Assembly (NCBI GenBank): GCA_905612535.1 | Contig: CAJQSJ010000035.1 | Span: 1-37,833 of the forward strand | Direction: 5' to 3' | DNA: 37,833 bases | Origin: an uncultured Pelagibacteraceae bacterium | Lineage (GTDB): Bacteria > Pseudomonadota > Alphaproteobacteria > Pelagibacterales > Pelagibacteraceae | Shown here: positions 1,245 through 2,999 of the stretch, one piece after another | Layout of the letters: each line of letters starts with the position of its first letter | How positions within the stretch are numbered: the stretch's first letter is position 1 | Translations under genes and position numbers: made by a program | Notes under the pieces: model-generated | Told to the model about the DNA's origin: nothing | What the model saw: only the letters and a program-made list of their open reading frames with translations | Database searches by the model: none

Positions 1245-1433
1245 TTTTTAAAATTCTATAATTAATAATCTGAGTATATATTTTTTAATTGTGGTGTCTT
1301 AATTATATTGCACAACGCTTGTAAAATTTAGACAACAAATCAGCAATATTGCGTCTAGATACTAAAAGCACTAATTAATCTTTACTTAACTATAGAAGTG
1401 CAGTCTTGGCACCTGGTAACAGAACGACTCTAC

Positions 1434-1586
1434 TTACTTTTTTGACAGTAGATCTTTCATCTTTAATTTAAGCTTCTTTAATGTTCTTAAATAGGACCAA
1501 CTTTTTTGTCCTCTTCTTAAGTTTCTTTCTATTTCAGCAATATTGACCTTTTTTTTAAGATCTTTATGTTTTTCTTTTATCTTCAT
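1434..1586 (-). CDS. Small lysine-rich protein, 50 residues, possibly DUF465/YdcH-like
   Basis: ATG to TAA, 50 residues, very basic (about 17 Lys) with no membrane segment. The C-terminal half has a regular leucine/lysine pattern (LKKLKLKMKDLL, about residues 36-47) that should form an amphipathic helix, and the N-terminal part (KHKDLKKKV, about 5-14) looks like a second helix. This resembles the helical-hairpin layout of small DUF465/YdcH proteins, but that is a weak, by-eye resemblance. It lies alone between gdhA and tRNA-Thr, on the same strand as gdhA. A 12-codon ATG-to-TGA stretch ends on its start codon (ATGA overlap), which could be a leader peptide or chance. No function is assigned. 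Confidence 0.5.
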   Translation of the reverse strand: MKIKEKHKDLKKKVNIAEIERNLRRGQKSWSYLRTLKKLKLKMKDLLSKK

Positions 1587-1955
1587 TTATTTTGAGCCAC
1601 GATCCGTAAAAGCCTTTTCATTCTGACTAAACCTAGCATAGATAGTATGGACTCGCTAGAACTCAGATTAGGGAGTCTGTGCTAATATAATATTGATTAC
1701 ATTAGAAATTTTTATTTTTTGTTAGACTTTATTATCTTTTTTTTAATCAGTAGATGACTTCATTTTCACTCCATAGTTAATTGTTCATATGCAGAGTGAC
1801 TTTTGAAATCCCACAATGTGTGAGACTGGCGTGCACTACTTTTTGCACTACGGATAACTCACTTCAGATCACAAAAGGGCTACAAATCAATTTTAAACCA
1901 ACAAGGAGCAGCGTCAACTGCGAGTGGAAAAAAAAGCTAATGAGGTATATAAACC
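1587..1955. other. Gene-free stretch of higher GC with inverted repeats
   Basis: No convincing gene. Bases 1801-1920 are about 40% G+C by hand count, clearly above the neighbourhood. Two nested inverted repeats are visible: TAGCA/TGCTA enclosing GACTC/GAGTC at 1634-1684, and GTGAG/CTCAC enclosing GTGCA/TGCAC at 1820-1862. The second also holds an 8-base direct repeat TGCACTAC at 1832 and 1844. It could be a structured small RNA, a leader of the small gene on the minus strand, or the remains of a lost gene. I do not recognise tmRNA, RNase P, SRP or 6S RNA signatures in it. Confidence 0.35.
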
Positions 1956-1984
1956 TTGAAGAATTAAATAAAAAATTCTATAAA
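1956..1984 (+). promoter_or_regulatory. Promoter of tRNA-Thr
   Basis: TTGAAG at 1956-1961 and TATAAA at 1979-1984 are separated by exactly 17 bases, close to the sigma-70 consensus. The -10 element ends nine bases before the first base of the tRNA, so the transcript should begin almost at the mature 5' end. Confidence 0.7.
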
Positions 1985-1993
1985 ACCTTTAAG

Positions 1994-2069
1994 GCCCTCA
2001 TAGCTCAATTGGTAGAGCAACTGATTTGTAATCAGTAGGTTCGCGGTTCGAGTCCGTGTGAGGGCACCA
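1994..2069 (+). tRNA. tRNA-Thr (anticodon UGU)
   Basis: A complete cloverleaf of 76 bases. The acceptor arm GCCCTCA pairs with TGAGGGC, the anticodon stem ACTGA/TCAGT encloses loop TTTGTAA (anticodon TGT at 2027-2029), and the T arm has the usual GGTTCGAGTCC core. The CCA end is encoded. The gene ends only nine bases before the stop codon of the convergent nadK. No clear terminator hairpin follows; there is a T run at about 2113-2119. Confidence 0.95.
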
Positions 2070-2950: not shown

Positions 2951-2980
2951 TTTATATATCACGCTCATACGTTGTGTCTA
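2951..2980 (-). promoter_or_regulatory. Promoter of tRNA-Leu and nadK
   Basis: Read on the minus strand, TAGACA (plus-strand 2975-2980) matches the -35 consensus at five of six positions. It is followed by TATATA with 16 bases between or TATAAA with 18. The -10 ends about ten bases before the tRNA. The -35 sits at one edge of a 12-base tandem repeat. Confidence 0.55.
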
Positions 2981-2999
2981 GTCCTCCGTCTAGTCCTCC
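2976..2999. repeat. 12-base tandem duplication (GTCTAGTCCTCC twice)
   Basis: Two perfect adjacent copies of GTCTAGTCCTCC. The copy nearer the tRNA contributes most of the -35 element of the tRNA-Leu promoter; the second copy differs only in the flanking base. No other copies were noticed in the window. Confidence 0.85.

Follow-up and report, generated by a model that had tools for sequence, protein, structure and literature searches.

A gene-free gap before tRNA-Thr in an uncultured Pelagibacteraceae bacterium: possible leader remnants of cassettes anchored at the tmRNA gene end

SAR11 genomes are a textbook case of streamlining, and a stretch of several hundred bases without a gene in one of them raises the question of what that DNA is. 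The contig considered here (G000:C35, 37,833 nt, called the window throughout) comes from an assembly of 69 contigs that is 57.55% complete. By a hand-made gene list, 95.5% of the window is covered by ORFs and tRNAs. The gap, at 1587-1993 (407 nt, 32.9% GC), is bounded by the start codon of a 50-aa ORF (1434-1586, minus strand) and the start of tRNA-Thr at 1994, and no spacer in the window is longer. The initial annotation, made from sequence alone, had reported about 370 gene-free bases in a gene-dense genome, and these are real. Reading from the left, the order is a dehydrogenase gene of glutamate/leucine type that the end of the contig truncates (gdh; 3-1244, minus; PF00208/PF02812), the 50-aa gene (minus; DUF465-like at 12.3 bits, below the Pfam cut-off of 25), the gap, tRNA-Thr (tgt; 1994-2069, plus), nadK (2079-2885, minus; named by Pfam) and tRNA-Leu (2856-2941, minus).

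A part of the gap had been described as GC-richer, near 40%. The segment 1801-1920 has 41.7% GC, a value reached or exceeded by 1.2% of all 120-nt segments; one other spacer of the window attains 40.8%. An exact 8-nt direct repeat, TGCACTAC, occupies 1832-1851 with copies at 1832 and 1844, a spacing of 12 nt. It is overlapped by one of two hairpins (1820-1862); the other lies at 1643-1684 and is stable on the plus strand only. These repeats, direct and inverted, are the ones that had been noted earlier, and all are present. The final ~40 nt of the gap resemble a promoter for tRNA-Thr, probably TTGAAG-17-TATAAA at 1956-1984 (plus), which was read by eye and was not listed by a scan of the sequence.

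A clue to the origin of the gap lies on the far side of the 50-aa gene. There, at 1406-1430 (plus strand), is a copy of the 3' end of the tmRNA gene without a tmRNA body in front (0 mismatches to the pattern, profile E 1.3e-6), presumed to be a duplicated attachment core. It is the sole copy in the window, where the next best place has a profile E of 1.5. The pattern has no further match in the 57.6%-complete assembly, and RF01849 detects no tmRNA body, either across the window at gathering score or within 1200-2100 at E<=10. The same word is common to the regions around homologs of the 50-aa gene, and it occurs in 48 of 60 genomes at one mismatch or fewer (reversed control, 0). The word corresponds to the 3' end of the permuted tmRNA gene, with RF01849 (alpha_tmRNA) matching there in 17 of the 20 loci scanned; L076, L080 and L122 stay below the cut-off. 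Four homologs of the 50-aa gene are known at 44% identity. With a profile, 32 of 347 family genomes gave matches at E<=0.05; nine of these (E<=1.2e-10, own genome included) are taken as real and 23 were set aside as chance. On its other side the tmRNA-end copy adjoins gdh, which is accessory and sporadic in the order: full-length relatives are found in 5 of 396 other genomes (one, in another genus, is 87% identical) and in 0 of the 22 other genomes of the genus sample.

In relatives, bodiless copies of the tmRNA end follow the true tmRNA gene on its downstream side and mostly share its orientation. Between copies there are one to a few genes, mostly small and mostly reading against the tmRNA. 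For example, loci L168 (G263), L165 (G034), L164 (G012), L163 (G016) and others hold same-oriented copies adjoining the tmRNA gene, and a unit can be ~220 bp with one ORF of 54-59 aa. Next to the tmRNA the arrays are flanked by thyX; the opposite flank consists, in several cases, of a PRA-PH/MazG-type gene and fumarase. Among 268 family genomes (at least 80% completeness requested; own genome included), 252 have at least one tmRNA-end match, 131 have two or more and 30 have four or more; 100 of the 131 multi-copy genomes have all their matches on a single assembly strand. Three of five named Pelagibacteraceae records have more than one copy, and one of these has four.

Some tmRNA ends occur in other settings. 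Copies away from the tmRNA gene are found in L176 (G232:C9) and L187 (G201:C5), beside a superoxide dismutase gene and a small gene of secreted-protein-like type. In L160 (G014), a gene for a C-5 cytosine DNA methylase sits in a 5.5-kb unit between two copies. The tmRNA end is also present on eight viral contigs (L188-L195), with the tmRNA body in front in all eight by a simple motif test and a small ORF or nuclease-like ORF following.

An enzyme for moving such units was sought in 25 array genomes with PF00589, the tyrosine-recombinase family. There were 23 matches in 21 genomes: one in each of 19, two in G277 and G311, and none in G012, G014, G197 and G447. None of the 23 falls within the array stretches examined; in G024 and G187 the match and the array share a contig and are hundreds of kb apart. 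Therefore, if the cassettes move by site-specific recombination, the enzyme would act in trans. Most of the matches are open frames of 300-325 aa, a length consistent with a Xer recombinase.

The DNA that follows a core copy has a character of its own. In clear cases, ~95-160 nt separate a bodiless tmRNA-end copy from the start of the next gene. Fifty-one of these leaders were compared, with exclusion of identical ones, of copies less than 200 nt from a locus end and of copies with a tmRNA body. Direct repeats of 7-8 nt were found at a spacing of 11 in 19 leaders and of 12 in 7 (20 leaders in all), where 40 shuffles gave means of 1.3 and 1.0 and a maximum of 3 in either case. At any other spacing from 6 to 20 the number was never above 3. 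The repeated words differ among leaders with similar flanks (L170, L178, L179, L180, L182 and others), and in some of the 20 (L160, L173 at 2800) the repeat lies in coding-looking sequence.

Counts in noncoding DNA point the same way. In 28 array loci (27,749 nt noncoding) there were 36 pairs at spacings of 11 or 12 versus 11 at other spacings, and the 36 are not independent because array loci are related to one another. The noncoding DNA of two relatives (400 kb of each sampled; 52,093 nt) had 0 versus 13, so the notion of a genome-wide feature of SAR11 spacers, hinted at by loci biased toward tmRNA, was not borne out. An E. coli control (50 kb, own composition; 3,679 noncoding nt) gave 1 versus 3. 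Both noncoding pairs of the window are at 12-nt spacing, one at 1832 in the gap and one at 2976-2999 (minus strand) upstream of tRNA-Leu. With a stricter threshold the counts become 13 versus 2 for array loci, 0 versus 1 for the relatives and 0 for E. coli; in the window the repeat of the gap is lost and 2976-2999 alone is kept. A 12-nt-spaced repeat upstream of tRNA-Leu is seen in G007 (L029) as well, and not in 13 other relatives examined.

The left end of the gap holds a further feature, a frame of 12 codons, MKRLLRIVAQNK and a stop, at 1583-1621 (minus strand). It appears to be the relic of a gene start of signal-peptide type, and its TGA stop shares bases with the ATG at which the 50-aa gene begins. 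Ahead of it TATGCTA (1634-1640, minus) is a possible -10 element; similar words precede starts in leaders L170, L178 and L151. The stretch 1594-1621 (minus) is 85.7% identical over 28 nt to the start of a gene beside a core copy (L164/L132), with 0 of 200 shuffles reaching the score. That gene is open, begins MKKLLGIVVLGLLLASS... and has at least 346 aa. In addition, 1601-1638 has a 38-nt match at 73.7% in G004 (L151/L080), where the matching stretch lies immediately ahead of the homolog of the 50-aa gene. A 30-codon frame starting MKKLLGILV is present in G004, and its TGA overlaps the ATG of the small gene, as in G000. Similar gene starts recur in other cassettes. The ATGA overlap, found in two species, would also fit a kept, coupled leader frame in place of mere decay. 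The idea that this left motif formed part of a tmRNA coding piece was dropped once the stretch was recognised as the beginning of protein genes. Several short frames had initially been called protein-like. The 12-codon frame alone resembles a known gene start; an 85-aa frame at 1781-2038 (plus), which extends into tRNA-Thr, has no Pfam match.

On balance, and with restrained confidence, the gap is more likely than not partly decayed leader DNA, from the promoter side of accessory cassettes such as those that Pelagibacteraceae carry at the tmRNA-gene 3' end. The points in favor are the tmRNA-end copy at 1406-1430, a repeat of the 11-12-nt class and the relic frame at 1583-1621. One or two cassettes would have been inserted at the gap; their genes would have decayed while the leaders stayed. 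The left leader, with TATGCTA, the relic start and the ATGA overlap, may now drive the 50-aa gene. The tmRNA-end copies would be attachment cores duplicated when a recombinase in trans, perhaps the single Xer-size recombinase of most of these genomes, inserted a cassette. To judge from layout only, the repeats could be activator sites near -35 or arm sites for the recombinase.

Against the cassette reading, the gap has no tmRNA-end copy by profile search, and its right half aligns to no leader. The nearest copy is beyond the 50-aa gene, and the gap therefore lies outside the standard place of a leader relative to the copy. A unit with core copies at both ends is not seen, there being one copy in the window and a contig end inside gdh. 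A degenerate copy at 1903-1925, suspected by eye, was unlisted by the profile at permissive settings. The initial annotation had offered a foreign or decayed fragment beside a tRNA gene as one explanation. This is supported in kind, with the correction that the fragment seems to be anchored where the tmRNA gene ends (3'), not at tRNA-Thr.

The strongest competitor, itself rather unlikely, is that the gap represents plain spacer, or else some decayed gene of other origin, unrelated to tmRNA-anchored cassettes, with the repeat and the short match being coincidental. The absence of a core copy from the gap fits this, as does the alignment of the right half (1761-1955, minus) to the 51 leaders, which is no better than for shuffles (195 of 200 reach its score). 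The spacer between core and gdh (1245-1407) fares no better (200 of 200), and an unrelated control spacer, 2070-2200, scores 21 (the score of the relic is 20), which 6 of 200 shuffles reach. Six-frame comparison of the gap with the collected loci gave a best E of 0.006 (L143, with gaps and stops), all others being at or above 0.09. Matches of the gap to L003, L007 and L009 were taken as chance because they are in coding-looking or AT-rich sequence. The direct repeat has a shuffle p of 0.006-0.01 and, as noted above, does not survive the stricter threshold. Coincidence accounts less well for a window in which both noncoding pairs have 12-nt spacing, versus none at 11 or 12 in 52 kb of other spacer. 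The same holds for G004, in which the relic match and the ATGA overlap recur in the corresponding position ahead of the homologous gene.

A conserved structured RNA was the other explanation initially proposed, together with a covariance-model search as the check. That search has been run, and the proposal is unsupported. Rfam at gathering score finds two tRNAs only in the whole window, and in 1200-2100 nothing credible outside tRNA appears even at E<=10. Overall folding is ordinary: the whole gap has z -0.88 on the plus strand (22 of 100 shuffles) and z -1.68 on the minus strand (3 of 100). DNA searches with the gap, run on 60 relatives and on 397 members of the order (each set including the source genome), gave matches in the AT-rich parts. 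Such matches occur in 129 of the 397 genomes, and a bare match count is therefore misleading. The exception is one 29-nt match (90%, G194) that touches the left GC-rich block; apart from it, no relative of the GC-rich blocks was found in either search. There was no match to phages and one to plasmids (E 0.06), and the viral contigs lack two exact words taken from the gap.

A narrower form of the RNA explanation, a species-specific small RNA transcribed from the plus strand, folding at 1643-1684 and 1820-1862 and acting in trans, is improbable. It draws on the hairpins, both of which beat shuffles in stretches picked out after the fact. On the plus strand 1630-1688 folds at -20 kcal/mol (z -3.38, 0 of 200 shuffles) and on the minus strand at z -0.31; for 1816-1866 the values are -14.2 (z -2.80, 2 of 200) on the plus strand and -12 (z -2.38, 4 of 200) on the minus. 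Set against this are a gap that as a whole folds like shuffles on the plus strand, the lack of an Rfam match and the fact that no relative of the gap body was found. A different candidate RNA was seen in relatives. Upstream of homologs of the 50-aa gene, a stretch of ~100 nt (L054 ~1280-1400; L057 ~1750-1850, minus) is nearly identical in four genomes, starts with promoter-like sequence, includes a stem with a run of T after it, and has no Rfam match at E<=5. From these sequence features it is possibly a small RNA.

Little weight is likewise given to the possibility that a join made during assembly or amplification lies at or close to the gap, which would make the arrangement partly artificial. 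The assembly is incomplete and fragmented (57.6%, 69 contigs), and in G001, G003 and G020 (L024, L027, L031; Pfam for L024) a SpoU-methylase (rlmB-type) gene, not a gap, is directly 5' of tRNA-Thr. In the assembled part of G000 nothing beyond matches of 28-31% was found for that gene. Against a join, the gap's left end has its match at the corresponding place in G004, and G007 has a homolog of the 50-aa gene directly after nadK, so the neighbourhood exists elsewhere. That the gap is a fragment left by an element integrated at the adjoining tRNA-Thr is very improbable, since it lies on the 5' side of that gene and no convincing partial copy of it was found elsewhere in the assembled genome (weak matches in G000, best E 8e-4, are tRNA-like or AT-rich).

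The cassette reading of the gap leads to a broader and more tentative proposal. An integron-like system, unrelated to integrons, may exist at the Pelagibacteraceae tmRNA gene, in which small accessory genes, delimited by tmRNA 3'-end copies of one orientation, are mobilised in trans, perhaps by a lone Xer-size recombinase. Its leaders would carry a 7-8-nt direct repeat at a fixed spacing of 11-12 nt whose sequence varies by cassette, the self-similarity of the pair being what is conserved, and the gap would be a fossil of such leaders. The gap matters only as an example of cassette leftovers; the tmRNA-anchored rows in relatives are the more interesting by-product. How accessory genes arrive in SAR11 is open: a 2007 survey (PMC2217521) describes four hypervariable regions without integron attC sites, HVR2 having an integrase gene and HVR4 being flanked by tRNA. 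Rows of cassettes bounded by tmRNA ends (at least two copies in 131 of 268 family genomes) would provide a concrete entry point and a recombinase to seek. No report of tmRNA-anchored cassettes in SAR11, or of the leader repeats, was recognised among the open-licence papers listed; the word tmRNA is absent from the main text of PMC7318151.

Several known systems are similar in part. Additive flexible genomic islands with repeated tRNA ends occur in streamlined aquatic bacteria, e.g., tRNA-Lys repeats in Methylophilaceae (PMC10872708) and tRNA-targeted gene cassettes in Actinomarinales (PMC7771536). They share with the rows in Pelagibacteraceae the short direct repeats of a stable-RNA gene end that bound small, variable sets of accessory genes, and growth at the RNA gene. 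They differ in that the anchor here is a permuted tmRNA gene and the leaders carry 11-12-nt-spaced repeats of differing sequence; the gap itself, unlike an additive island, has lost its genes and holds no core. Genomic islands that use tRNA or tmRNA genes as targets form an established class (Islander, PMC4383910), and there too a displaced copy of the end of the target gene marks the end of the element; in contrast, no integrase is near the arrays in the 25 genomes checked here. With alpha_tmRNA (RF01849) the window shares the 25-nt word at 1406-1430, which is the 3' end of that gene, but no tmRNA body. Integron cassette arrays are also rows of small single-gene units, each with a recombination site, whereas the repeated site in Pelagibacteraceae is the end of tmRNA.
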